A stretch of 64,000 nt of DNA from Arenicola marina. Its lineage: Eukaryota; Annelida; Polychaeta; Arenicolidae. The notes below the pieces were generated by a model. That model was not told the origin of the DNA. It saw nothing but the letters and a program-made list of their open reading frames with translations, and did not search any database. Position 1 is the first letter of the stretch. Every line of letters begins with the position of its first letter. A program made the translations under genes and the position numbers. Of the stretch, positions 27,116-60,749 are shown piece after piece. Location: positions 1,054,001 to 1,118,000 of the forward strand of contig OZ025265.1 of NCBI GenBank assembly GCA_964019135.1, written 5' to 3'.

Positions 27116-27182
27116 ATGAGTGGTTCAGACACATCTGCGGATGCGTCGAATGATGCTGAAATTGCCCACTTTTACACACCAG
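27116..27182 (+). CDS. Candidate first coding exon of an unrecognised gene
   Basis: The ATG at 27116 is followed by an acidic, Ser/Asp-rich peptide MSGSDTSADASNDAEIAHFY ending at TP, then donor GTATGAGG. It starts head-to-head with LSM5. I do not recognise the family. An upstream ATG at 27038 (MADAVCLTSN) would be a 20-codon upstream ORF. Confidence 0.45.
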
Positions 27183-35890: not shown

Positions 35891-35965
35891 GGTACCGGAA
35901 GTCCGACGCTCTCAATGCCGTAGATCTGCTGCCGCTGCTCCAGGAGGGAATCGCCTTCCTCTCCG
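35891..35965 (+). CDS. TRIO: TRIO/kalirin N-terminal exon, on the opposite strand to the rest of the gene
   Basis: Acceptor CTGTTCCAG and donor GTCAGTC bound YRKSDALNAVDLLPLLQEGI then AFLS, with two leading bases and one trailing base. Vertebrate TRIO has FRKNDEMKAMDVLPILKEKV then AYLSG, the segment just before the SEC14 domain. The exon phase fits the family. The rest of the gene in this window lies on the minus strand beyond the gap at 36335. The following family exon (KRGGPILTFPAR) was not found. Confidence 0.75.
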
Positions 35966-40806: not shown

Positions 40807-41031
40807 GCCAGCCTACAGTGTCCAGAGGACATCCCACGACCCTTGCAATCTTGTACGATTGTTCTCAGGAGAGGTAACTCTCTGATCACTCCAGATCATA
40901 CACACATATAAATATACCATTCTGGATTTGCGACATCGATCTGGATAACGTCGCACTCTGGGAGAGAGACAACGTTTACAAGCCCAGTGGCCATGATGTG
41001 TCGGGAATCCCGAAAGAAAACGCCTCCTCAC

Positions 41032-41154
41032 CTGAGCGACGGCCTCAAAGTGCTCCTGGTTCTTCTGGAGCGCTTTGGCCTTCTGGAGCGACTTGCCCAC
41101 GGCAGAGTTCTTCTCCAGGAAGACGTCGCCGTGGTTGTCCAGCCAGTCGATCAC
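41032..41154 (-). CDS. TRIO: TRIO exon: spectrin repeat (last seen)
   Basis: Acceptor GTGTTCCAG, donor GTGAGGAGG. It encodes VIDWLDNHGDVFLEKNSAVG and KSLQKAKALQKNQEHFEAVA, matching VLDWIENHGEAFLSKHTGVG. The next family exon (ADKLLEAAEQLAQTGECDPE) was not found between 36535 and 41031. Confidence 0.96.
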
Positions 41155-44100
41155 CTGGAACACAGGACTCGTTAATACATGACTCGTTAATACAGGACTC
41201 GTTAATACAGGACTCGTTAATACAGGACCTCGTTAATACAGGACCTCGTTAATACAGGACTCTTTAATACAGGACTCGTTAATACACGAACTCGTTAATA
41301 CAGGACTCGTTAATACAGGACTCGTTAACACAGGACTCGTTAATACAGGACTCTTTAATACAGGACTCGTTAACACACGAACTCGTTAATACAGGACTCG
41401 TTAATACACGAACTCGTTAATACACGAACTCGTTAATACAGGACTCGTTAATACACGAACTCGTTAATACACGAACTCGTTAATACAGGACTCGTTAATA
41501 CACGAACTCGTTAATATAGGACTCGTCAATACAGGACTCGTTAATACAGGACTCGTTAATACACGAACTCGTTAATACAGGACTCGTTAATACAGGACTC
41601 GTTAATACAGAACTCGTTAATACACGAACTCGTTAATACACGAACTCGTTAATACACGAATTCGTTAATACACGAACGCGTTAATACAGGACTCGTTAAT
41701 ACAAGACTGTTTAATACACGAACTCGTTAATACACGAACTCGTTAATACACGAACTCGTTAATACACGAACTTGTTAATCCAGGACTCGTTAATAAACGA
41801 ACTCGTTAATCCAGGACTCGTTAATACAGGACTCGTTAATACACGAACTCGTTAATACACGAACTCGTTAATACACGAACTCGTTAATACAGGACTCGTT
41901 AATACACGAACTCGTTAATACAGGACTCGTCAATACAGGACTCGTTAATACAGGACTCGTTAATACACGAACTCGTTAATACAGGACTCGTTAATACAGG
42001 ACTCGTTAATACAGGGCTGGTTAATACACGAACTCGTTAATCTAGGACTCGTTAATACTGGACTCGTTAACACACGAGCTCGTTAATCCAGGCCTCGTTA
42101 ATACAGGACTCGTTAATACAGGGCTGGTTAATACAGGGCTGGTTAATACAGGGCTGGTTAATACAGGACTCGTCAATACAGGACTCGTTAATACACGAAC
42201 TCGTTAATACACGAACTCGATAATACACGAACTCGTTAATACACGAACTTGTTAATCCAGGACTCGTTAATAAACGAACTCGTTAATCCAGGACTCGTTA
42301 ATACAGGACTCGTTAATACACGAACTCGTTAATCCAGGACTCGTTAATACAGGACTCGTTAATACAGGGCTGGTTAATACACGAACTCGTTAATCTAGGA
42401 CTCGTTAATACTGGACTCGTTAATACACGAGCTCGTTAATCCAGGACTCGTTAATACAGGACTCGTTAATACAGGGCTGGTTAATACAGGGCTGGTTAAT
42501 ACAGGGCTGGTTAATACAGGACTCGTCAATACAGGACTCGTTAATACACGAACTCGTTAATACACGAACTCGATAATACACGAACTCGTTAATACACGAA
42601 CTTGTTAATCCAGGACTCGTTAATAAACGAACTCGTTAATCCAGGACTCGTTAATACAGGACTCGTTAATACACGAACTCGTTAATCCAGGACTCGTTAA
42701 TACAGGACTCGTTAATACAGGGCTGGTTAATACACGAACTCGTTAATCTAGGACTCGTTAATACTGGACTCGTTAATACACGAGCTCGTTAATCCAGGAC
42801 TCGTTAATACAGGACTCGTTAATACAGGGCTGGTTAATACAGGGCTGGTTAATACAGGACTCGTCAATACAGGACTCGTTAATACACGAACTCGTTAATA
42901 CACGAACTCGATAATACACGAACTCGTTAATACACGAACTTGTTAATCCAGGACTCGTTAATACAGGACTCGTTAATACACGAACTCGTTAATCCAGGAC
43001 TCGTTAATACAGGACTCGTTAATACAGGGCTGGTTAATACACGAACTCGTTAATCTAGGACTCGTTAATACTGGACTCGTTAATACACGAACTCGTTAAT
43101 CCAGGACTCGTTAATACAGGACTCGTTAATACAGGGCTGGTTAATACACGAACTCGTTAATCTAGGACTCGTTAATACTGGACTCGTTAATACACGAGCT
43201 CGTTAATCCAGGACTCGTTAATACAGGACTCGTTAATACAGGGCTGGTTAATACAGGGCTGGTTAATACAGGGGTGGTTAATACAAGACTCGTTAACACA
43301 CGAACTCGTTAATCCAGGACTCGTTAATACAGGGCTTGATATTCACATTATATATCTGTCTGGATCCCCTGTACGACACTAGGACCCTTCCCTCTCACCT
43401 GTTTGACGTCCTGTTGGAAGAGCCGCAGCCCCAGTCTCTGGTGTAGCTTCACTTTCCCCTTGTGCCAGACCTGGTCCAGCTGGCGGTGGTGGGCGAACAC
43501 CTAGGAGGCCAACACAACACAGGTCATCACTGGACGCCACAAAGGGTGGGGGGGGGGGGGGGTCTTATGTATGCAAGGCTTTAATGCACATCTAATGGCA
43601 ACGAAGCCTACACGTTACGCGCATGTCAAGCACTGTGAACATTCAATGAATGAATGTAAATATCATGTTTGTTCAAGTTTTGTCGATATCTATCAACTTG
43701 TCGTATAGCTCATATTTGTGTTTACACGCGGAACTGTTATAGGACCAGCCGTCACGTGACCGCAAAGGGATACAACGGGACCGGTGTAAACAGAACTGAT
43801 TTTGGGACAAAGCGATATATATAAAGACTTCCGTGGTATCAAGTTACATGATCCTGAGGTGGTCACGTGACACGACCCTGAGGTGGTCAGGTGACAGAGA
43901 GCGTGGAGCGGTCACGTGACATGACCCTGAGATGGTCACGCGACATGACCCTGAGGTAGTCACGTGACATGACCCTGAGGTAGTCACGTGACATGATCCT
44001 GATATGGTCACGTGGCATGAGCCTGAGGCGGTCACGTGACATGATCCTGAGGTGGTCACGTGACATGATCCTGAGGTGGTCAGTTGACAGAGAGCGCAAA

Positions 44101-47100
44101 GGAGTCACGTGACAGACAGCGTGAGGCTGTCACGTGACAGACAGCGTGAGACTGTCACGTGACAGAGAGCGTAAGTGGGTCACGTGGCCGGCTGCTGACC
44201 TCGTGGACGACGTCGAGGACGTGGGACGCGCCCTCCGAGTAGTCGGCCTTGGCGGTGATGGAGTTACTGCTCCCGGAGCTGACGGGGGTCTGCAGGGTGT
44301 CCAGGAGGGCCTTCCCGTCCGAGCACAGCTGTAACCAGGGTAACCAGAGTCAGTCAGAGCCACAGTCAATATCAGAACACACCTGTAACTAGAATACAAA
44401 ATAAATATTCCAGGAGAACTGGGAACACAGTCAAAATACATTTATATGAAACAGAAAAATACATGTCACGAGAAGGTTACCTTTTAAATAAAGCTTAGAT
44501 AAAGGACTTTAGGAAAGCAATAACTGGGTAGAGAGACTTTGATTAAGACCGGGTAGGCCGCTGTCATGGAACCCGGCCTAACCAACACACACACACATAG
44601 CTTAGTGGTACAAGGTGCAAGCAATTCCCAAATAGGTGTTTAGGAAGTTTGTAAATATAAATATAGGCATGTGAGTTGAGACACGAGGTGTTGACAAGAG
44701 AAGAAGTATAGTGAAGACCGCGAAGAGCATGGGCCACGCTAGCCTGACTAGAAGTTGGCGAGAGGTTAGCGAGAAGCTGACGAGAGGTTGAGACGACGTT
44801 GAATAAAGTCTAGTGAGTGGATAACGCAAGGCTGAGGAGAGGCAGACAAGAGGATAAGCAGAGGTTGATGAGAAGTTGATGAGAAGTTGACGAGAGGTTG
44901 ACGAGAGGTTGGCGAGAGGCTGACAAAAGGCTGACGAGAGGTTGACGAGAAGTTGGCGAGAGGTTAGCGAGAGGCTGACGAGAGACTGACAAGAGGTTGC
45001 GGAGAGGCTGACAAGAGGTTGCGGAGAGGCTGACGAGAGGTTGGCAAGAGGTTAGCGAGAGGCTGACGAGAGGCTGACAAGAGGTTGCGGAGAGGCTGAC
45101 AAGAGGTTGCGGAGAGGCTGACGAGAGGTTGGCAAGAGGCTGGCAAGAGGTTGACGAGTGGTTGGCGAGAGGTTGGCGAGAGGCTGACGAGAGGCTGACA
45201 AGAGGTTGCGGAGAGGCTGACAAGAGGCTGACGAGAGGCTGACGAGAGGTTGGCAAGAGGCTGACAAGAGGCTGACGAGAGGTTGACGAGAGGTTGGCGA
45301 GAGGTTGGCGAGAGGCTGACGAGAGGCTGACGAGAGGTTGACGAGAGGTTGACGATGCTAGCGAGGCTGATGAGAGGCTAACGAGAGGCGCACGAGAGGC
45401 TCACGAGAGGTTGGCGAGAGGATGATGAGGGTTTGACGAGAGGTTGACAAGGGGCTGACAAGAGGCTGACGAGAGATTGACGAGAGGCTGATGAGAGGTT
45501 GACGAGTGGTTGACCATGATGGCGAGGCTAACGAGACGTTGGCGAGAGGTTGACGAGAGGCTGATGAGAGTTTGACGAGAGACTGACGAGATAGACGAGA
45601 GGCTGACGAGAGGTTGACGAGAGGCTGACAAGAGGCTGACCAGCGTTTGACGAGAGATAGACGAGAGGCTGACGAGAGATTGACGAGAGATTAACGAGAG
45701 GCTGATGAGAGGCTGACGAGAGGCTGACGAGAGGCTGACGAGAGGCTGACGAGAGGCTGACGAGAGGCTGACGAGACTGAAGATGAGGCGAACTCGATGC
45801 TGACAAGAGGACAAGGAGAGATTGATTGACGAGAGGCTGACGAGAGGGAGGCGAGACTCACGTCTGTGTAGCACTGGGTGACGTTCTCTATCAGTGTCTG
45901 GTGGTGGCTGATGGCCTCCTCCAGGTCCGCGATGTTGTCCGGCACCTCCAGCGCGTCACACACCGCCTTCCAGTTAGGTGTCTCCTCCAGGTACTGGAAG
46001 ACCACGTGACACATATATCATAGCAGGTACTGCAAGACCACGTGACACATATATATCAGGTACTGATAGGCCACGTGACACATATCATAACAGGTACTAA
46101 AAGACCACGTGACACATATATCATAGCAGGTACTGCAAGACCACGTGGCACACATATATCAGGTACTGATAGACCACGTGACACATCATAACCCACACGC
46201 GGCACACATATATCATAGCAGCTACTGAAAGACCACGTGGCGCACTTAGGTCACACAGAGGTCGTACTTACATCTTGAGTCTTCTTGTGGAAGAGCACTG
46301 ACAGCGCCAGCACTGTGTTGTCGTATATAGGTCATATATAGGTCACACAGAGGTCATACAGAGGTCGTACTTACATCTTGAGTCTTCTTGTGGAAGAGCA
46401 CTGACAGCGCCAGCACTGTGTTGCGGTCCTCCAGAGCAGTGGCAAACGTCCGCCAATCCCGATCCAGTTTGCTGGCCTGCATCCGGATCGAGGGCGCCGC
46501 GTAGTGGCCGGCGTCGCACAACCGCTGGGCCACCGTCAGGATCCGACTGATCTTGGCGTAAATGTTCTGGATCAAATCAAAGAGATTTGGTGTGTAGGTT
46601 AGGGTGGATGTGGAGAATTATTTTGTGGCGTATGTCTTCCGGATTGTGGGGTGTTTTAGGCCACTTTTGTGCACACATGGGCCAAGGGGCAAAGGTACCT
46701 CTGGGACAATGCGATAGGGAGGGCGGGGGTGGAGTACACTACCTGTCTACAGCGGTGGCTTAGTCACGTCTTCATAAAACCTGGATTGCTTGTAAATATC
46801 CATGAACATAATTATCACTTTTAATAATTGTATAACGTCACGCCTTCCATATTGTGTGTTCCTACAATCTGGGTACATGCGGCGTTGTACTTCATGTAGA
46901 GGTGTACTAAAGGGATACTGAGGGGGACGTGGGAGTGTGGTGTATGTATGTTCCCACTGAACGGGGATTATGAATTAGTGCATACCCGAATCGCCATGGA
47001 AACGAAATATTGGTGTTTTAGGCCACTTTTGTGCAAATGCAAATGAAGACTAAACTGGGTTCGAACCCACGACCTCTGGATCTGCAGCTTAGGCTGCACA

Positions 47101-50100
47101 CCAACTTAGCTAGGGAGGCTTCCGGGTCGCTATGGGTGCACAACTTGACGTTTACTCTATGATATTATAGACAAGTAGGGCGTTGGGTGTATTAATAGTT
47201 ACAGTTCTCGCCGTGCAGAATCAACACACTGGGACTTACCATGGAATTGATGGTGAACTGACTGTGTTCACTCTGTAGCTCCACCGCAACCTTATCGGTG
47301 GAGCCGATTTCCGTGTAGTTGACTAGAAATAATTCTCGGTTGTGGGATATCCATTCAAACATCTGTGGAAAAATTAGAATATTGAAAATGTTATTTGTTT
47401 TACTCATACAACATTTTCTTCTCCACAGAAATTCCCCAAATGTAGACGCCGAGAAAAAACCATTTGACTCTAGAGATTAGTGTCGTGTGGGGTCCATTAT
47501 TCTTTGCGTAAAGTATGTTATCTGATGTGATGTGTTTAACCGCTATTCGAACTTCTGAAGCCTTGTCTTGCCATAAATATAATATATGGTGCCTATAGCA
47601 AGAGGTTACAGAGAACCACAGGTCACATGCAGCTGGGGGTCACAGAGAACAAGGTCACATAGAGTTGGCGGCCACACAGAACCAAATGTCACATAGAGTT
47701 GGGGGTCACTGGGGGCGAGCGGTCCCAGAGAACCAGGTCAAAGAGTACCAGACATCACAGAGAACCAGAAATCCCAAAGAACCAGAGGTCACAGTGAACC
47801 AGAGGTCACAGTGAACCAGAGTTCATAGTGAACCAGAGGTCACAGTGAACCAGAGGTCACAGTGAACCAGAGGTCACAGTGAACCAGAGGTCACAGTGAA
47901 CCAGAGGGCACAGTGAACCAGAGGTCACAGTGAACCAGACATCACAGAGAACCAGAGATCACAGAGATCCAGGTCACAGGACACGAGGTCGCAGGGAACC
48001 GGATCACACAAAAACTAGTTACAGAGAAGATAGGTCACAGAGAACATATGTTTCAGAGAACCAGACGTCACAGAGAACAAAAATGTCACAAAGAATGAGG
48101 TCACAAAAGCGAGAGGCCAGAGAATACCAGAGATCAGAAAACAAAAGAAAACAAATCACAGAGAACACGGGAAGAGAGACACAGACCAATTGTATGAAAG
48201 AAGCAGATATCGATAGAGCACGCAGAGGGACACAAAGAAGAGCCACAAAAAAGAGACAACAACAGAACACAAAGAAGAGAACGGGCACAGCCACAGGGCG
48301 TGCAGTCACCTGTTCCACGTCCTGCTCGAACAGTCTCAGCTGGAAGCATTGCTCCAGCTTCACCTTCTGCACGTGCCACAGCTGGTTGAGGTGCGTACGT
48401 GACATGTGCAGGCGGTCCAGCGTCTGGGTGACCTTGGCCGACACCAGCTGGTGGTCGGGGTTTCCGGGACTGAGGGCGCCCGTCACCGACCCTGTGAGGG
48501 TGGGGGTGGGGGTAAATAAAATATAAAAAGACATAAAATATATGTCAGATGTCCAAATTTTAGTCATACTGTTTTTTATGTCACATGTAAGTCCAAATTT
48601 GTAACATTATTTTCCATATTTGGTTGATATTTATTAGCTTTCGACCGTAAGTCAGTTGTATCGAAACCCTTGCTAATGGATAACAACGGATAGGTTCCTC
48701 GGGATTGTACAAATTGTACTGTGGCGGTCTGTACTCTAATAACCCATCTCACTTGCACACTAAGAGTATTGACACATGCAATCAGTCGCATATCAGATTC
48801 ATATAAAATAAATCACATGCCGTTTATATAGTTAACAGTTGAACCGGACTTGAAGTGAAAGCAAGCAGTCATCAACACTTCCGCAATAGGTTCATGTTGT
48901 AATGTGCCAGTTGTTGGCCTCGCCATTGTAACTGGTGTGACAACTGATAACGAGGAAGTCCAACTATTAATGGCAAGTGAGTACATAAAAGCTAGACACA
49001 AATTATAAACCGCACCGTGTTTATGCCGCGTGATAAACCTCACCTAGTTTATGCCGCGTGATAAACCTCACCGTGTTTATGCCGCGTGATTAACTTCACC
49101 ATGTTTATGCCGCGTGATTAACTTCACCATGTTTATGCCGCGTGATAAACTTCACCGTGTTTATGCCGCGTGATAAACCTCACTGGGTTTATGCCGCGTG
49201 ATAAACTTCACCGTGTTTATGCCGCGTGATAAACCTCACCGTGTTTATGCCGCGTGATAAACCTCACCGTGTTTATGCCGCGTGATAAACCTCACCTTGT
49301 TTATGCCGCGTGATAAACCTCACCGTCTTTATGCCGCGTGATCAACCTCACCGTGTTTATGCCGCGTGATAAACCTCACCGTGTTTATGCCGCGTGATTA
49401 ACTTCACCGTGTTTATGCCGCGTGATAAACCTCACCGTGTTTATGCCGCGTGATTAACTTCACCATGTTTATGCCGCGTGATTAACTTCACCATGTTTAT
49501 GCCGCGTGATAAACTTCACCGTGTTTATGCCGCGTGATAAACCTCACTGGGTTTATGCCGCGTGATAAACTTCACCGTGTTTATGCCGCGTGATAAACCT
49601 CACCGTGTTTATGCCGCGTGATAAACCTCACCGTGTTTATGCCACGTGATAAACCTCACCGTGTTTATGCCGCGTGATAAACCTCACCTAGTTTATGCCG
49701 CGTGATAAACCTCACCTAGTTTATGCCGCGTGATAAACCTCACCGTGTTTATGCCGCGTGATTAACTTCACCATGTTTATGCCGCGTGATTAACTTCACC
49801 ATGTTTATGCCGCGTGATAAACTTCACCGTGTTTATGCCGCGTGATAAACCTCACTGGGTTTATGCCGCGTGATAAACTTCACCGTGTTTATGCCGCGTG
49901 ATAAACCTCACCGTGTTTATGCCGCGTGATAAACCTCACCGTGTTTATGCCGCGTGATAAACCTCACCTTGTTTATGCCGCGTGATAAACCTCACCGTCT
50001 TTATGCCGCGTGATCAACCTCACCGTGTTTATGCCGCGTGATAAACCTCACCGTGTTTATGCCGCGTGATTAACTTCACCGTGTTTATGCCGCGTGATAA

Positions 50101-53100
50101 ACCTCACCGTGTTTATGCCGCGTGATTAACTTCACCATGTTTATGCCGCGTGATTAACTTCACCATGTTTATGCCGCGTGATAAACTTCACCGTGTTTAT
50201 GCCGCGTGATAAACCTCACTGGGTTTATGCCGCGTGATAAACTTCACCGTGTTTATGCCGCGTGATAAACCTCACCGTGTTTATGCCGCGTGATAAACCT
50301 CACCGTGTTTATGCCGCGTGATAAACCTCACCGTGTTTATGCCGCGTGATAAACCTCACCGTGTTTATGCCGCGTGATAAACCTCACCGTGTTTATGCCG
50401 CGTGATCAACCTCACCGTGTTTATGCCGCGTGATCAACCTCACCGTGTTTATGCCCCGTGATCAACCTCACCGTGTTTATGCCGCGTGCTGCCGAATATT
50501 CGCTGCAGTATTTTCTGCCCCTCGGCGTCCAGAAGCTCCACTGGCGCCCTCTGGATGCGGCGCTTGAGATTATTGTGATCCTCTATCATTATTTTGGCAC
50601 CGCTCAAGTCGTCAGGCAGCTCGGGCTGGGTCAGGATGTCATGGATCTGATCCATCTTCACCAGCAGATCATGGGACTTCCAGATGAATTCTTCCAAAAT
50701 CTGAATCCACATTTAACAACGGATCAATCGCGTGACATTAAAAATTGAATTATTTATACGATATGTGTATAACCAATGTTATGATCCAGGGCAATGGGGT
50801 AATACTGAAAGACGATGGGGAACATTGTACCAGGTGGCACCCTATGTGGCTTCTACGGCATTCGCACCGAAATGAAAGTCCTGACCGCCCAGTTATTGAT
50901 GTTTTTGACCACATTTACGTGTGAGCGTCTTCGGCCAGGTATATTAGTATACAACAGCTCCAACCGGTTTTACGATACATGTCTGCTACATAATAAGGAA
51001 CAAGTATTCTGATGGGGGCGGGGGGGGTGATGGTGATGGTGGTGATAGTGATGGCGATGGTAATGGTGATGGCGGTGATGATGGTGATGGTGGTGATGAT
51101 GGTGATGGCTATGGCGATGGTGATGGCAGTGATGGTGATGGCGATGATGGTGATAGCGATGGCGATGGTAATGGCGGTGATCATGGTGATGGCGATGGCG
51201 ATGATGGTGATGGCGATGATGGTGATGGCGAAGATGATGGCGATGGCGGTGATGATGGTGATGGTGATGATGGCGATGATGGTGATGGCGATGGTGATGA
51301 TAGCGGTGATGATGGTGATGATGGTGATGGCGGTGATGGTGATGATGGTGATGGCGATGGTGATGATGGTGATGGCGATGATGATGGTGATGGCGGTGAT
51401 GATGGTGATGGCGATGGCGGTGATGATGGTGATGGCGATGGTGATGATGGTGATGGCGATGGCGATGATGGTGATGGCGATGATGATGGTGATGGCGATG
51501 ATGATGGTGATGGCGGTGATGATGGTAATGGCGATGATGGTGATGATGGTGATGGTGATGGCGGTGATGGTGATGGCGATGATGATGGCGATGGCGGTGA
51601 TGATAGTGATGGTGATGATGACGGTGATGATGGTGATGGCGATGGTGATGGCGGTGATGATGGTGATGGCGGTGATGGTGATGGCGGTGATGGCGGTGAT
51701 AGCGATGATGGCGATGGCGATGGCGGTGATGGCGGTGATGATGGTGATGGTGATAGCGATGATGGTGGTGGTGGTGATGATGGTGATGGCGGTGATGATG
51801 GTGATGGCGATGATGGTGATGATGATGGTGATGGCGGTGATGATGGTGATGGCGGTGATGATGGTGATGGCGGTGATGATGGTGATGGCGGTGATGGTGA
51901 TAGCGATGATGGTGATGGCGGTGATGGCGATGATGATGGTGATGGCGGTGATGATGGCGGTGATGATGGTGATGGCGGTGATGATGGTGATGGCGGTGAT
52001 GATGATGATGATGATGGCGGTGATGATGGTGATGGCGGTAATGATGGTGATGGCGGTGATGATGGTGATGATGGCGATAGCAATGATGGTGATGGCGATG
52101 ATAGCGGTGATGATGGTGATGGCGGTGATGATGGTGATGGCGGTGATGATGGTGATGGCGGTGATGGTGATAGCGATGATGGTGATGGCGGTGATGGTGA
52201 TAGCGATGATGGCGATGGTGATGGCGGTGATGATGATGATGGCGGTGATGATGGTGATGGCGGTGATGATGGTGATGGCGGTGATGATGATGATGATGAT
52301 GGCGGTGATGATGGTGATGGCGGTGATGGTGGTGATGATGGTGATGGCGGTGATGATGGTGATGGCGGTGATGATAGTGATAGCGATGATGGTGATGGCG
52401 ATGATAGCGGTGATGATGGTGATGGCGGTGATGATGGTGATGGCGGTGATGGTGATAGCGATGATGGTGATGATGGTGATGATGATGGTGATGGCGGTGA
52501 TGATGGTGATGATGGCGATGATGATGGTGATGATGATGATGATGGTGATGATGATGGTGATAGCGGTGATGATGGTGATGGCGGTGATGATGGTGATGGT
52601 GATGGCGGTGATGATGGTGATGATGATAGCGGTGATGATGATGATGGTGATGATGATGGTGATGGTGATGATGATGGTGATGGCGGTGATGATGGTGATG
52701 GCGGTGATGATGGTGATGGCGGTGATGATGGTGATGGCGGTGATGGTGATAGCGATGATGGTGATGGCGGTGATGATGGTGATGGCGGTGATGATGGTGA
52801 TGGCGGTGATGATGGTGATGGCGGTGATGATGGTGATGGCGGTGATGATGGTGATGGCGGTGATGATGGTGATGGCGGTGATGGTGATAGCGATGATGAT
52901 GATGGTGATGGCGGTGATGATGGTGATGGCGGTGATGATGGTGATGGCGGTGATGATGGTGATGGCGGTGATGGTGATAGCGATGATGATGATGGCGGTG
53001 ATGATGATGATGGTGATGATGATGGTGATGGCGGTGATGATGGTGATGGCGGTGATGATGGTGATGGCGGTGATGATGGTGATGGCGGTGATGGTGATAG

Positions 53101-56020
53101 CGATGATGATGATGGTGATGGCGGTGATGGTGATGGCGGTGATGATGATGATGGCGGTGATGATGGTGATGGCGGTGATGGTGATGATAGCGGTGATGAT
53201 GGTGATGGCGGTGATGATGGTGATAGCGATGATGGTGATGGCGATGATAGCGGTGATGATGGTGATGGCGGTGATGATGGTGATGGCGGTGATGGTGATG
53301 ATGGTGATGATAGCGGTGATGATGGTGATAGCGGTGATGATGGTGATGGCGGTGATGATGGTGATGGCGGTGATGGTGATGATGGTGATGATAGCGGTGA
53401 TGATGGTGATAGCGGTGATGATGGTGATAGCGGTGATGATGGTGATGGCGGTGATGGTGATGATGGTGATGGTGATGATAGCGGTGATGATGGTGATGGC
53501 GGTGATGATGGTGATGGCGGTGATGATGGTGATGGCGATGATGGTGATGGTGATGATAGCGGTGATGATGGTGATGGCGGTGATGGTGATGGCGGTGATG
53601 GCGATGATGGTGATGGCGATGATGGTGATGGCGATGGTGATGATGGTGATAGCGATGGTGATGATGGTGATGGCGATGATGGTGATGGAGATGATGGTGA
53701 TGGCGGTGATGGTGATGGCGGTGATGATGGTGATGGCGATGATGATGGTGATGGCGGTGATGGCGATGGAGATGATGGTGATGGCGGTGATGGTGAAAGC
53801 GATGATGGTGATGGTGGTGGTGATGATGGTGATGGCGGTGATGGTGATAGCGATGATGGTGATGATGATGGCGGTGATGATGGTGATAGCGATGATGGTG
53901 ATGGTGATGATGGTGATGGCGGTGATGATGGTGATGGCGGTGATAGCGATGATGGTGATGGTGATGGCGGTGATGATGGTGATGGCGGTGATGATGGTGA
54001 TGGCGGTGATGATGGTGATGGCGGTGATGATGGTGATGGCGGTGATGATGGTGATAGCGATGATGGTGATGGTGATGGCGGTGATGATGGTGATGGCGGT
54101 GATGGTGATGGCGGTGATGATGGTGATGGCGGTGATGATGGTGATGGCGGTGATGATGGTGATGGCGATGATGATGGCGATAGCGATGATGGTGATGGTG
54201 ATGATGATGGCGGTGATGATGGTGATGGTGATGATGGCGATGGCGATGATGGCGATGGTGATGATAGCGGTGATGATGGTGATGGTGGCGATGATGGTGA
54301 TGGTGATGATGGTGATGGTGATGATAGCGATGGTGATGGCTATGGGGATGGTGATGATGGTGATGGCTATGGTGATGATGGTGATGGCGGTGATAGCGAT
54401 GATGTTGATGGCTGGGCACACTAACCAATCGCGTTTCGATCCAGTTCTGGTTGTCGTAGGGCAGAGTGCCATCGAAGTCGGCTGTGAGCTGTGACAGGTG
54501 GACCAGCTTGTGCAGACTGTCCACCGATATCAAGTTCGTCTGAAGCGAGGCAATGACACCATTAGTCTCCCACTGCCATACGTCATCACAGTCCATTATA
54601 AAGAGGGTGACACCATTAGTCTCCCACTGCCATACGTCATCACAGTCCATTATAAAGAGGGTGACAAGATTCAAGATTAATTTACTTGACTAAGTACGAC
54701 GTAAATACAAACGAGAAGTGAAACAAATAGTGGACTTGGCCGGGAGACTCCAGCTAAGACCTTAAAGGTCGCTGGCGCTAGAGCCACCCAACATTGTGAT
54801 TTTTAGAGTTATACAGTGACATGGTGGCTACAGCATGTCATCAAACGTCAAACCGTATGGTGGCTCTAGCGCCATCCTAAGCCACCAAAGGCCACTTTTA
54901 AAGATGCTCCAGTAGCACACTAATATGCCTTCAATAATCTACTATAAATGTCACTAGAGTGAGCTCGTCTCCCAAGTAAATATTAAGGACGCTTTAACCA
55001 TTTTTTGGTCATATCGCGTCAATGGGAGAACGAAGGGTGAGCCGGAGCCATGTCCCCGGGGGTAACCCCCTACTCTTTGCGAAGAAAGACATGGGATCTT
55101 TATCCTGCGACCACACAGACCTGGCCACAGCGGGGCGCGAACCATCGATCCACTTGCCGTTAGGTTCTCAGGTAGCCAGAGCACGCTATGCGAGCGCTCC
55201 AACCCAATGAGCTACCGGGGCGGCCCCTTCGTTCAGGTGGGAGGGACTTACCTCAAACTTGTATTTGGCACTCCCGAGACTAGTTTTCTGCTTCTCCCAG
55301 AACTTTTCTGGCTTAATTATAAAGGCGACGTGTACTTTGTGAGGAAAGCATTCCTGCGAGAGAGCAAAGAACGGGAAAATAGTATTGTGAAATGTATACA
55401 ACACGAAACATAAATCCTGGTAAATCAAATAACCATAATCAGAGAATTCCAGTGACTGCACCATGAAATAGCGCAGAGATCATAGATATTTAAGACTATG
55501 TCGCTGTTGGAACCTCACACAAATAAATGACATCGACAAGAACGTTATATATACATGAAATCTAGCGACAAGAATAGCTGTTGTTTGAATAGCTGCAAGA
55601 GTTCCAATAACGCACTACATACAGGAGGCAGCTTATTTGTTGCATTGAAAAAAACCAGTATACTATGATCATAGTGCCGGTATCTAAAGCGCATTTCGAT
55701 ATAGATAGATAGTTTATTGGTAACTTCGGGCACCAGGCCCATCGTACAAATACAAAAAATAACATGTCAACGACTGAAATGTCCAAAATTCATATTGCAG
55801 CTTTTATGAAATTTGTTATTAAATTTCAGATTATATGCTGTAGCGAGGCATTGGCTGAGGTATCACATAACTCATTTAGAGCTCAGTGCCACTGACTCAC
55901 TATAAATGCATATATTTGCTGTAACTCACCTGTAATACTTTGAGTATAGGTTTGACGTTATGCCACGTGGCTCCCCGCATGTCAATTATCACAGTAAACC
56001 CGAGTTCCCGTACATCTTCA
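41032..56020 (-). CDS. TRIO: TRIO/kalirin-family Rho guanine exchange factor, SEC14 and spectrin-repeat exons (partial gene)
   Basis: TRIO and kalirin are large cytoplasmic RhoGEFs in axon guidance and actin control. They have an N-terminal SEC14/CRAL-TRIO domain, spectrin repeats and two DH-PH units. Eleven exons (about 505 codons) lie in order on the minus strand and join in phase. They cover the SEC14 core (FTVIIDMRG, HVAFIIKPEKFW) and then spectrin repeats (LWHVQKVKLEQCFQLRLFEQ, AQRLCDAGHYA, KVKLHQRLGLRLFQQDVKQ, VIDWLDNHGDVFL, VGKSLQKAKALQKNQEHFE). Each aligns without gaps in order to human TRIO. The DH, PH, SH3 and kinase parts are not in the window. All introns are GT-AG, and nine of ten carry tandem duplications or arrays. 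Invertebrates usually have one Trio gene; the symbol is used in that sense. Confidence 0.93.
41155..43335. repeat. 15-bp minisatellite filling a TRIO intron
   Basis: About 145 units of TAATACAGGACTCGT with variants (CACGAACTCGT, CAGGGCTGGT) start at the acceptor of the 41154 exon. On the sense strand each unit reads ACGAGTCCTGTATTA, so the pyrimidine tract TCCTGT is repeated. Higher-order blocks recur, for example around 42060, 42420, 42780 and 43190. Confidence 0.95.
43399..43500 (-). CDS. TRIO: TRIO exon: spectrin repeat
   Basis: Acceptor GCCTCCTAG, donor GTGAGAGG. It encodes VFAHHRQLDQVWHKGKVKLH and QRLGLRLFQQDVKQ, matching VLHHQRQLENIWQHRKVRLH of TRIO. Confidence 0.95.
43845..44190. repeat. 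24-bp array of GTCACGTGAC palindromes in a TRIO intron
   Basis: About twelve units of the GTCACGTGACATGATCCTGA / GGTG type begin about 10 bp beyond the donor of the 44200 exon. GTCACGTGAC is the consensus CLEAR/E-box palindrome bound by TFEB/MITF and USF. Confidence 0.88.
44200..44328 (-). CDS. TRIO: TRIO exon: spectrin linker
   Basis: Acceptor GGTTACAG, donor GTCAGC. It encodes LCSDGKALLDTLQTPVSSGS and ADYSEGASHVLDVVHE, matching QDGKSLLDKLQRPLTPGSS and YSKAVHHVLDVIHE. The coding frame has no ATG of its own. Confidence 0.93.
44740..45850. repeat. 11-bp minisatellite in a TRIO intron
   Basis: Roughly 100 units of GAGGCTGACGA / GAGGTTGACGA run up to about 10 bp from the donor of the 45862 exon. 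The sense strand is pyrimidine-rich. Confidence 0.93.
45862..45993 (-). CDS. TRIO: TRIO exon: spectrin repeat
   Basis: Acceptor GTCTTCCAG, donor GTGAGTC. It encodes YLEETPNWKAVCDALEVPDN and DLEEAISHHQTLIENVTQ, like LQDLEDAIHHHQGIYEHIT of TRIO. The acceptor with its first bases (CAGTACCTG) is repeated in the upstream intron. Confidence 0.95.
45994..46245. repeat. Repeat containing the 3' splice site of the 45862-45993 exon
   Basis: About six units of ~40-46 bp on the sense strand read CACGTGGTCTTxCAGTACCTG. They include the acceptor AG and the first six exon bases (TACCTG). Confidence 0.88.
46258..46360 (-). repeat. TRIO: Partial duplication of a TRIO exon end with its donor
   Basis: Bases 46272-46320 repeat the last 49 nt of the exon at 46375, and the donor GTAAGTACG is also copied, at a 103-bp offset. 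Using the second donor would read into a stop after the first. Confidence 0.92.
46375..46566 (-). CDS. TRIO: TRIO exon: spectrin repeat
   Basis: Acceptor GATCCAG, donor GTAAGTACG. It contains ISRILTVAQRLCDAGHYA and WRTFATALEDRNTVLAL, as in TRIO (AAALDERSTLLDMS). The last 49 nt with the donor are duplicated 103 bp further on. Confidence 0.97.
46645..47110 (-). mobile_element. SINE fragments, family C
   Basis: Two pieces start with TTTTAGGCCACTTTTGTGCA (46651, 47016). The second contains a tRNA-like B box on minus (GGGTTCGAACCCAG). A related piece lies at 31476-31640. They occupy most of this TRIO intron. Confidence 0.5.
47240..47362 (-). CDS. TRIO: TRIO exon: spectrin repeat
   Basis: Acceptor TTCCACAG, donor GTAAGTCC. 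MFEWISHNRELFLVNYTEIG is close to TRIO MFDWITHNKGLFLNSYTEIG. The exon ends HSQFTINSM. Both ends are phase 0. Confidence 0.97.
47590..48060. repeat. 15-bp array with AGGTCA half-sites in a TRIO intron
   Basis: GTGAACCAGAGGTCACA and variants recur about thirty times. AGGTCA is the nuclear-receptor half-site. The array degenerates into purine-rich sequence towards the exon at 48310. Confidence 0.85.
48310..48491 (-). CDS. TRIO: TRIO exon: spectrin repeat
   Basis: Acceptor CCCTCACAG, donor GTGACTG. It encodes VTQTLDRLHMSRTHLNQLWH and VQKVKLEQCFQLRLFEQDVE. It matches the TRIO segment LDRLHSTRQHLHQMWHVRK and its conserved EQDxE end. Confidence 0.97.
49009..50487. repeat. 28-bp array containing a TRIO 5' splice site
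   Basis: About 52 units on the sense strand read ACGCGGCATAAACACG then GTGAGGTTTATC. The first unit is the real exon end and donor at 50472. A block of 24 units is itself duplicated (features at 49297 recur at 49969, 672 bp away). Confidence 0.95.
50472..50700 (-). CDS. TRIO: TRIO exon: first spectrin repeat
   Basis: Acceptor GGATTCAG, donor GTGAGG. It encodes ILEEFIWKSHDLLVKMDQIH, then IMIEDHNNLKRRIQRAPVEL and GQKILQRI. The trailing G joins GG of the next exon. The last 16 nt and the donor are repeated some 52 times downstream. Reading past the first donor meets a stop, so that copy must be used. Confidence 0.95.
51012..54413. repeat. GATGGTGATGGCGGT array, 3.4 kb, in a TRIO intron
   Basis: This trinucleotide-based array of GAT/GGT/GGC/AGC codon-sized words is open in several frames on both strands because all periods are multiples of three. 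It lies between the exons at 54426 and 50700, and nothing in it matches a protein family. Confidence 0.95.
54426..54539 (-). CDS. TRIO: TRIO exon: end of SEC14 domain
   Basis: Acceptor CGCTTCAG, donor GTTAGTG. It encodes LHKLVHLSQLTADFDGTLPY and NWIETRL, as in TRIO (LTKVVDPSQLTPEFDGCLEY). The donor lies about 12 bp from the 3.4-kb GATGGTGAT array. Confidence 0.95.
54554..54666 (-). repeat. 54-bp tandem duplication at a TRIO branch-point region
   Basis: Two copies containing, on the sense strand, GACTAATGGTGTCA (a branch-point-like CTAAT) lie just upstream of the acceptor of the 54539 exon. Confidence 0.8.
54983..55226 (-). mobile_element. tRNA-derived SINE, family A copy 5 in a TRIO intron
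   Basis: It has the same body and pol III boxes. Its head ends about 25 bp downstream of the donor of the 55252-55353 exon. It has the same orientation as the TRIO gene. Confidence 0.8.
55252..55353 (-). CDS. TRIO: TRIO exon: SEC14 domain
   Basis: Acceptor CTCTCGCAG, donor GTAAGTCCC. It encodes ECFPHKVHVAFIIKPEKFWE and KQKTSLGSAKYKFE. Human TRIO has ESFPCCIHVALIIKPDNFWQ. A SINE ends about 25 bp beyond the donor. Confidence 0.97.
55930..56020 (-). CDS. TRIO: TRIO exon: SEC14 core strand
   Basis: Acceptor CTGTTACAG, donor GTGAGTT. It encodes EDVRELGFTVIIDMRGATWH and NVKPILKVLQ after a split Ser codon, matching SEEVCKRGFTVIVDMRG of TRIO. The acceptor and first 40 nt of this exon are the unit of the 60-bp array immediately upstream, so several acceptors identical or nearly so compete. 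Confidence 0.95.
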
Positions 56021-57680
56021 CTGTAACAGAGAAAACACCCGTCAATTATCACGGTAAACCCGAGTTCCCGTACATCTTCGCTGTAACAGAAAAAACACTC
56101 GTCAATTATCACAGTAAACCCGAGTTCCCGTACATCTTCACTGTAACAGAGAAAACACCCGTCAATTATCACAGTAAACCCGAGTTCCCGTACATCTTCA
56201 CTGTAACAGAAAAAACACTCGTCAATTATCACAGTAAACCCGAGGTCCCGTACATCTTCACTGTAACAGAGAAAAAACTCGTCAATTATCACAGTAAACC
56301 CGAGTTCCCGTACATCTTCACTGTAACAGAAAAAACACTCGTCAATTATCACAGTAAACCCGAGTTCCCGTACATCTTCACTGTAACAGAAAAAACACTC
56401 GTCAATTATCACAGTAAACCCGAGTTCCCGTACATCTTCACTGTAACAGAGAAAACACCCGTCAATTATCACAGTAAACCCGAGTTCCCGTACATCTTCA
56501 CTGTAATAGAGAGAAAACACCCGTCAATTATCACAGTAAACCCGAGTTCCCGTACATCTTCACTGTAACAGAGAAAACACTCGTCAATTATCACACTAAA
56601 CCCGATCTCCCGTACATCTTCACTGTAACAGAAAAAACACTCGTCAATTATCACAGTAAACCCGAGTTCCCGTACATCTTCACTGTAACATAGAAAAAAA
56701 CATTCGTCAATTATCACAGTAACCCGAGTTCCCGCACATCTTCACTGTAACAGAGAAAACACTCGTCAATTATCACGGTAAACCCGAGTTCCCGTACATC
56801 TTCACTGTAACAGAAAACACTCGTCAATTATCACGGTAAACCCGAGTTCCCGTACATCTTCACTGTAACAGAGAAAACACTCGTCAATTATCACAGTAAA
56901 CCCGAGTTCCCGTACATCTTCACTGTAACAGAGAAAACACTCGTCAATTATCACGGTAAACCCGAGTTCCCGTACATCTTCACTGTAACAGAGAAAACAC
57001 TCGTCAATTATCACGGTAAACCCGAGTTCCCGTACATCTTCACTGTAACAGAGAAAACACTCGTCAATTATCACAGTAAACCCGAGTTCCCGTACATCTT
57101 CACTGTAACAGAGAAAACACTCGTCAATTATCACAGTAAACCCGAGTTCCCGTACATCTTCACTGTAACAGAGAAAACACTCGTCAATTATCACGGTAAA
57201 CCCGAGTTCCCGTACATCTTCACTGTAACAGAGAAAACACTCGTCAATTATCACGGTAAACCCGAGTTCCCGTACATCTTCACTGTAACAGAGAAAACAC
57301 TCGTCAATTATCACAGTAAACCCGAGTTCCCGTACATCTTCACTGTAACAGAGAAAACACTCGTCAATTATCACGGTAAACCCGAGTTCCCGTACATCTT
57401 CACTGTAACAGAGAAAACACTCGTCAATTATTACAGTAAACCCGAGTTCCCGTACATCTTCACTGTAACAGAGAAAACACTCGTCAATTATCACAGTAAA
57501 CCCGAGTTCCCGTACATCTTCACTGTAACAGAGAAAACACTCGTCAATTATCACGGTAAACCCGAGTTCCCGTACATCTTCACTGTAACAGAGAAAACAC
57601 TCGTCAATTATCACGGTAAACCCGAGTTCCCGTACATCTTCACTGTAACAGAGAGAAAACACTCGTCAATTATCACAGTA
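55975..57680 (-). repeat. 60-bp array containing the SEC14 exon's 3' splice site
   Basis: About 28 units consist of 20 bases of pyrimidine tract and acceptor (GAGTGTTTTCTCTGTTACAG) plus 40 nt of coding sequence (peptide EDVRELGFTVIID). The unit closest to the gene is the real exon. Because 60 is divisible by three, neighbouring units stay in frame. Confidence 0.96.
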
Positions 57681-57769
57681 ACGTTTTATGCCGTTTTGAG
57701 GGCTACAAACTAGGCCGGAAACCTTTCGGGCGATGAAGCATGAATAGATGAACCTTGCTCTAGATTAGT

Positions 57770-59819: not shown

Positions 59820-60549
59820 GGGGACTGGCGCTCCCTTGGGCTGGCACGGGGGACTCCCTTGGGCTGGCACGGGGGACTTCCTTGGGCTGGCACGGGGGAC
59901 TTCCTTAGGCTGGCACGGGGGACTCCCTTGGGCTGGCACGGGGGACTTCCTTGGGCTGGCACGGGGGACTCCCTTGGGCTGGCACGGGGGACTCCCTTGG
60001 GCTGGCACGGGGGACTCCCTTGGGCTGGCACGGGGGGACTCCCTTGGGCTGGCACGGGGGACTCCCTTGGGCTGGCACGGGGGACTCCCTTGGGCTGGCA
60101 CGGGGGACTCCCTTGGGCTGGCACGGAGGACTCCCTTGGGCTGGCACGGGGGACTCCCTTGGGCTGGCACGGGGGACTCCCTTGGGCTGGCACGGGGGAC
60201 TCCCTTGGTCTGGCACGGGGGACTCCCTTGGGCTGGCACGGGGGACTCCCTTGGTCTGGCACGGGGGACTCCCTTGGGCTGGCACGGGGGACTCCCTTGG
60301 GCTGGCACGGGGGACTTCCTTAGGCTGGCACGGGGGACTCCCTTGGTCTGGCACGGGGGACTCCCTTGGGCTGGCACGGGGGACTCCCTTGGGCTGGCAC
60401 GGGGGACTCCCTTGGGCTGGCACGGGGGACTCCCTTGGGCTGGCACGGAGGACTCCCTTGGGCTGGCACGGGGGACTCCCTTGGGCTGGCACGGGGGACT
60501 TCCTTAGGCTGGCACGGGGGACTTCCTTAGGCTGGCACGGGGGACTCCC
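59820..60549. repeat. 23-bp minisatellite running into a gap
   Basis: About 31 units of CTTGGGCTGGCACGGGGGAC with TCC. The array is cut by the N run at 60550, so its true length is unknown. Confidence 0.95.
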
Positions 60550-60749
60550 NNNNNNNNNNNNNNNNNNNNNNNNNNNNNNNNNNNNNNNNNNNNNNNNNNN
60601 NNNNNNNNNNNNNNNNNNNNNNNNNNNNNNNNNNNNNNNNNNNNNNNNNNNNNNNNNNNNNNNNNNNNNNNNNNNNNNNNNNNNNNNNNNNNNNNNNNNN
60701 NNNNNNNNNNNNNNNNNNNNNNNNNNNNNNNNNNNNNNNNNNNNNNNNN
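60550..60749. other. Assembly gap, 200 N
   Basis: Exactly 200 N, inside or at the edge of the 23-bp array. Probably a placeholder. Confidence 0.98.

Follow-up and report, generated by a model that had tools for sequence, protein, structure and literature searches.

A 28-fold tandem array of a 3' splice site at a SEC14 exon of a TRIO/Kalirin gene in the annelid Arenicola marina

In a 64,000-nucleotide (nt) stretch of the Arenicola marina genome (contig OZ025265.1, positions 1,054,001 to 1,118,000; hereafter the window), the 3' splice site of an exon encoding part of the SEC14 domain of a TRIO/Kalirin gene is repeated in tandem 28 times. This array is probably a minisatellite of the kind described in amphioxus as "mirages", which has taken in a real 3' splice site, with the exon-adjacent copy being the one mostly spliced and the intron-side copies being tolerated.

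The acceptor array at exon E1 and its gene

Tandem Repeats Finder reported 28.3 copies with a period of 60 on the minus strand (96% match, score 3108), and unit splitting resolved these into a head-to-tail row of 28 full units with a 17-nt partial unit at the upstream edge, a copy number that excludes a chance origin. A preliminary description of this DNA had proposed about 28 copies of a 60-base-pair (bp) unit beside a SEC14 exon, each containing a pyrimidine tract, the acceptor CAG and the first 40 exon bases, and all of this was borne out. Each unit consists of approximately 20 nt of the intron end and the first 40 nt of the exon; 23 units are 60 bp long, two are 62 bp and one each is 63, 59 and 58 bp. 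CAG precedes T/CGAAGATGT in 28/28 units, all of which also carry a T-rich tract and, 20-25 nt upstream of the junction, a TTGAC branch-type motif that comes from the exon part of the preceding unit. The AG is kept in every copy (28/28), while the units differ by distinct variants. Acceptor scores, which rest on approximate weights, are between 5.4 and 7.9 in 27 of the 28 copies (1.6 in copy 14), and those of copies 2-9 (5.4-7.5) equal or exceed that of copy 1 (5.4). Gene structure and homology place the authentic acceptor at 56021/56020, in the exon-adjacent copy; the exon, E1, ends in the donor CAG/GTGAGT.

Judged by its sequence, the gene is a member of the TRIO/Kalirin family. A tblastn search with a human TRIO probe (of approximate sequence and ending before the DH-PH domains) found 11 collinear exons on the minus strand, which can be spliced at GT/AG with matching phases into a product of 506 amino acids (aa) without a stop, 51.6% identical to residues 117-618 of the probe. 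The conserved SEC14 segment is present singly in this frame. Among solved structures, the SEC14 piece is matched by the Sec14 domain of Kalirin (PDB 7ur2, E 3e-24), and Pfam found Spectrin (PF00435) above its cut-off in the 506-aa product (57.1 bits). Counting against the SEC14 call, CRAL_TRIO scored 20.1 on the 65-aa SEC14 piece, under the Pfam cut-off of 22.6, and was absent from the Pfam scan of the 506-aa product at 0.001. The closest named sequences in the database are molluscan and annelid members of the TRIO/Kalirin family (60-65%), followed by vertebrate ones (about 50%). The order of a SEC14 domain and then spectrin repeats, a feature of TRIO/Kalirin membership, was found, and the likeness to the SEC14 and spectrin part of this RhoGEF family comprises sequence, domain order and an intact frame over 506 aa.

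Two 200-N gaps interrupt the window. The piece that they enclose (36535-60549) was probably placed backwards by the scaffolder, because E1 to E11 are on the minus strand inside it, whereas TRIO exon 2 and, probably, exon 1 are encoded on the plus strand to the left of the gap; the TRIO gene is therefore probably collinear in the animal. The exon for residues ~79-116 was not found in the window with the human probe, with homologue probes or by a motif scan; this search used eight homologues, one of which is without the region, and minus-strand matches at 41000-55950 were outside the homologue output. This exon may lie in an unassembled part. A 23-bp x 31 array (59831-60749) reaches the second gap.

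With regard to reading frame, use of acceptors 2-9 (eight in addition to the authentic one) gives stop-free, in-frame exons of 151-571 nt in 60-nt steps, whereas acceptors 10-28 all give frameshifted exons with stops, since unit 9 is 62 nt long. The array had earlier been described as about 28 in-frame copies, which is correct for copies 2-9 and fails from copy 10 on. Likewise, the proposal that any of the nearest eight or nine upstream acceptors adds n x 20 residues in frame stands for eight of them and not for the ninth, copy 10, which shifts the frame.

Splice-site arrays elsewhere in the gene and in the genome

Arrays are also found at other junctions of the TRIO gene (Table 1). In the donor array at E4, GT is intact in 53/53 copies and an added unit brings a stop. 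In the acceptor array at E8, each unit includes 6 exon nt, the authentic acceptor is the last in a row of seven, and all six upstream acceptors bring a stop. The end of E7 and its donor are duplicated once, approximately 103 nt deeper in the short E7-E8 intron (46270-46375). Tandem arrays make up 50.7% of the 24-kb piece, and their ends lie within 40 nt of 7/22 junctions, compared to 2.0 on average when the arrays are rotated (P 0.0016; 0.0016-0.016 over the four distances tried). Similarly, 5/8 arrays lie within 15 nt of a junction, compared to a mean of 1.0 when arrays are shifted within their own introns (P 0.0007; 0.0007-0.0055 over three distances); the E1 array was omitted from this null because its intron is incomplete in the window.

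Table 1. Positions of TRIO exons and tandem arrays in the window
Feature	Position	Strand	Basis
3' splice-site array at E1, 28 full ~60-bp units + 17-nt partial	55981..57681	-	Tandem Repeats Finder, unit splitting
Exon E1 (SEC14), starts in phase 2, authentic acceptor at high end	55930..56020	-	tblastn + splicing model
Exon E2 (SEC14)	55252..55353	-	tblastn + splicing model
Exon E3 (SEC14)	54426..54539	-	tblastn + splicing model
Exon E4	50472..50700	-	tblastn + splicing model
Exon E5	48310..48491	-	tblastn + splicing model
Exon E6	47240..47362	-	tblastn + splicing model
Exon E7	46375..46566	-	tblastn + splicing model
Exon E8	45862..45993	-	tblastn + splicing model
Exon E9	44200..44328	-	tblastn + splicing model
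Exon E10	43399..43500	-	tblastn + splicing model
Exon E11	41032..41154	-	tblastn + splicing model
TRIO exon 2, upstream of SEC14 core, across N gap	35891..35965	+	homology
Probable TRIO exon 1, coding part from ATG	27116..27182	+	weak matches, E 0.008 to 0.34
5' splice-site array at E4 donor, 53 copies x 28 bp (17 nt exon end + 11 nt intron)	49005..50488	-	Tandem Repeats Finder
3' splice-site array at E8, seven acceptors including the authentic one, 33-59 nt apart	45988..46225	-	Tandem Repeats Finder (span 45988-46186)
54-bp x 2.1 repeat, ends 14 nt upstream of E3 acceptor; adjacent, acceptor not covered	54554..54666	-	Tandem Repeats Finder
18/36-bp array, most of intron E3-E4, 31 nt from E3 donor	51028..54394		Tandem Repeats Finder
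15-bp x 141 array in intron E10-E11, which it fills up to 7 nt from the E11 acceptor; unit with TTAAC	41162..43333	-	Tandem Repeats Finder

Elsewhere in the window, a tRNA-derived, SINE-like stretch was seen by eye on the minus strand at 55040-55225; ARAGORN found no tRNA gene and Rfam no match in the window. A 168-aa minus-strand open frame at 10548-11054 had no Pfam match at 0.001, and presumably resembles the N-terminal part of prolyl 4-hydroxylase alpha.

The assembly (867 Mb in 762 contigs, labelled C1, C2 and so on) was sampled with a Myosin_head search, which gave 77 exon matches, of which 72 were tested and five left uncovered. The test registered a 20-base junction word recurring within 1.5 kb on the intron side; junctions were the best-scoring sites near the ends of the hidden Markov model (HMM) matches, and single ones may be wrong, C20:12503597 being the least sure. 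At least two further copies of the word were found at 9/72 donors and 3/72 acceptors, compared to 16.0% of 712 random intron points on the donor side, 11.6% of 709 on the acceptor side and 1/72 exon middles. The corresponding values for at least one further copy were 15/72, 4/72, 18.5%, 16.9% and 9/72, with three of these 15 donors, all on C4, resembling duplicated exons: at locus L046 (C4:367768-371306) the donor words of three myosin exons each have one further copy 860-1343 nt away, which apparently reflects tandemly duplicated alternative exons. Donors were in arrays about as often as intron points (P 0.50), and the depletion of acceptors was not significant relative to intron points (P 0.07) or donors (P 0.13). 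Measured from the HMM match ends, array coverage was 0.19 over the first 20 nt beyond donors and 0.17-0.25 deeper, whereas beyond acceptors it was 0.08 over the first 20 nt and 0.16-0.22 from 40 nt. In the genes sampled, arrays thus occupy donors about as often as any intron point and acceptors perhaps less often.

A kinesin sample, in which the exon-1 donor was placed one base off and most pieces had approximately 600 nt of flank instead of 1500, had arrays at 1/10 donors and 0/9 acceptors. Over all genes sampled, arrays were present at 11/93 donors and 4/92 acceptors, an asymmetry that is a hint only (P 0.10), and about 1/12 of the exon ends carry one; the E8 array, with its six shared exon bases and diverged units, is missed by the 20-base test and was counted from its own analysis. 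Among the myosin arrays are a 62-bp donor unit after NNYLLEK with 24 further copies, a 42-bp unit with 33 and a 100-bp unit with 14. A single myosin exon (L059, C9:121003-123479) carries arrays at both ends, with 23 copies of a 51-bp unit at its acceptor and 44-45 copies of a 26-bp unit at its donor. After another myosin exon (L048, C4:2728795-2731110), 81-83 copies of a 28-bp unit carry CACAG/GTCAGT, a joined acceptor- and donor-like site that recalls a recursive splice site. A separate survey of arrays around 67 myosin exons found 14 rows spanning a junction and 11 more within 40 nt outside it; by eye, 3/14 spanning rows (C4:41885060, C12:34187954 and C12:10169582) lack a repeated splice site and C4:41898438 is marginal.

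The spare splice sites in these arrays do not decay. Among 14 arrays judged clear (leaving out C4:41898438, C20:12503597, C20:12504715, C1:64327365 and the E7 duplicate), GT or AG is kept in 339/345 copies. When authentic copies are excluded, 6/330 are broken, vs 26.7 expected for a random dinucleotide of the same units (P 0.015); relative to the same dinucleotide elsewhere, 5/303 are broken vs 12.8 (P 0.053). Within single arrays, 42-98% of other dinucleotides are preserved at least equally well, and active preservation of the spare splice dinucleotides is only hinted at. Since they retain these dinucleotides, the spare copies are either well ignored or used.

Explanations for the array

The E1 array probably arose when a 60-bp stretch at the intron/exon boundary of the SEC14 exon was duplicated and then expanded by slippage or unequal exchange. 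Copies on the exon side would be coding and would have been purged, and those on the intron side would have been tolerated since splicing normally picks the site next to the exon. That this site is the one mostly used is suggested by the intact frame of a conserved protein and by the published amphioxus results; upstream copies would leave with the intron, possibly with low-level in-frame products carrying n x 20 additional residues. This looks like a general phenomenon, with minisatellite formation pervading the introns of this annelid genome and often including a splice site. Two considerations weigh against this explanation. A rule favouring the first-transcribed acceptor would select copy 28 and frameshift the protein, and the spare sites are undecayed even though drift might be expected of unused sites. 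The right copy is the first transcribed in donor arrays and the last in acceptor arrays, which could explain why acceptor arrays are rarer, if they are, and makes the 28-fold E1 array the harder case. A difference in AG exclusion may bear on the choice of copy 1 and is only a lead: copy 1 has an AG-free zone of 53 nt, while 23/28 copies have an AG 13-17 nt upstream. Copies 3, 8, 9 and 12 are also without this upstream AG, which in the others sits near the branch motif. Masking of spare acceptors by RNA structure found no support, as E1 with about three units folds at z -1.28 and 22/200 shuffles fold equally well or better.

The copies could alternatively compete, in line with the serious splicing burden that the preliminary description named as its other possibility. 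This would yield a mixture of correct, lengthened in-frame and frameshifted mRNAs, with the frameshifted ones being lost by nonsense-mediated decay, in which case the array would be costly noise and a slightly harmful, unstable allele. The close likeness of 27/28 acceptors in tract and branch motif is consistent with competition, and the lower frequency of arrays at myosin acceptors than at donors or intron points, together with the thinner coverage in the first 20 nt beyond acceptors, looks as if such arrays were selected against. However, this depletion is not significant, and the importance of TRIO/Kalirin in other animals would make a large loss costly; competition of this kind is therefore considered unlikely. 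A broader proposal, in which binding or use of the spare sites (as decoys, alternative sites or U1/U2AF docking sites) keeps them intact and copy number sets splicing at approximately 1/12 of exon ends and varies between individuals, appears quite improbable.

The preliminary description also suggested a length-variable splicing array that makes SEC14 isoforms, and this suggestion gained little support. As a selected isoform generator, acceptors 2-9 would add 20-160 residues to the SEC14 domain. In line with this, eight in-frame, stop-free alternatives exist with scores at least as high as that of copy 1, and distinct exonic changes, classified by eye, are synonymous in 5 cases and non-synonymous in 3 (P 0.02-0.05), although this test comprises eight changes, with the five synonymous ones all being transitions and the three others transversions. 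Copies 10-28 are out of frame, however, spare copies at E4 and E8 give frameshifts or stops, and each of eight homologue N-termini has a single copy of the segment. All four frame-breaking units lie beyond the first eight, which is unremarkable (P 0.24). Furthermore, an open in-frame unit is added by only 2/15 arrays, those at TRIO E1 and at one myosin acceptor, which is near the chance rate of 0.15, our own rough estimate, and therefore speaks against a selected generator, making this a very doubtful explanation. Cassette or mutually exclusive exons were rejected, as by eye the E1 unit has no recognisable donor and the units therefore do not look like exons. An artefact of assembly, affecting the copy number or the whole E1 array, could be suspected from the two gaps, the apparently misoriented piece between them and the difficulty of assembling copy numbers of long arrays; it is extremely unlikely given that the E1 units carry distinct variants and that similar arrays are present on several large contigs (C1, C2, C4, C7, C9, C12, C14 and C20).

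Host placement and comparison with known systems

On sequence grounds the host is a lugworm-like annelid and not a cephalochordate, the taxon in which mirages were described. ND5 from a 15.9-kb mitochondrial contig was closest, among the matches listed, to Abarenicola claparedi oceanica (Arenicolidae; 72%), and in the best 120 of 7954 matches the named ones looked annelid by name except for one Homarus. In a tree that included no amphioxus sequence, TRIO grouped with two annelids and one unnamed sequence, with support of 93/89, below the 95/80 threshold.

The accessible parts of a report on intron minisatellites in earthworm metallothionein genes show no splice-site arrays among them (PMC12783039), and a literature search brought up no splice-site arrays in annelids, a result that does not prove their absence. 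What appears new here, as far as this search goes, is the phylum and the frequency of mirages. How spliceosomes select one of several identical adjacent sites is an unsolved problem, and if the sampled rate holds genome-wide, an extrapolation, this genome would offer very many natural tests of splice competition that could be read by long-read RNA sequencing.

Arrays of cassette or mutually exclusive exons, as in Dscam, share with the E1 array the presence of many coding copies beside acceptors. The model of intron gain by tandem genomic duplication (AGGT model), in the part of its description available, shares duplicated splice-site segments within genes; here, by contrast, the edge of an existing intron is multiplied, no new intron was seen and most units have one splice site only.

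The closest comparison is with the mirages of amphioxus, first reported, it is said, for Adh3 in Nucl Acids Res in 2002. According to the accessible parts of two later reports, tandem repeats extend over intron/exon boundaries in Adh3, globin (BflGb6, BflGb9), PGBD5 and troponin C without disturbing splicing, and the globin mirages comprise 3 and 6 units and one duplicate, with AG/GT in many copies and not in all (PMC3087553, PMC3902484). Variation in length between haplotypes or somatic cells is another trait of mirages. The E1 array has the same structural features, with a unit that spans the boundary, the authentic junction in the exon-adjacent copy and spare dinucleotides that are kept, and the two systems share repeats at donors or acceptors in which AG/GT is retained in many copies. 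The annelid arrays differ in being longer (28, 53 and ~81 copies) than the globin mirages described in those parts, in belonging to another phylum and in being found at 11/93 donors and 4/92 acceptors sampled. Their frequency in a distant phylum indicates that mirages occur beyond amphioxus, and suggests that minisatellite-rich genomes may commonly give rise to them and that they may represent a route to new introns or isoforms.

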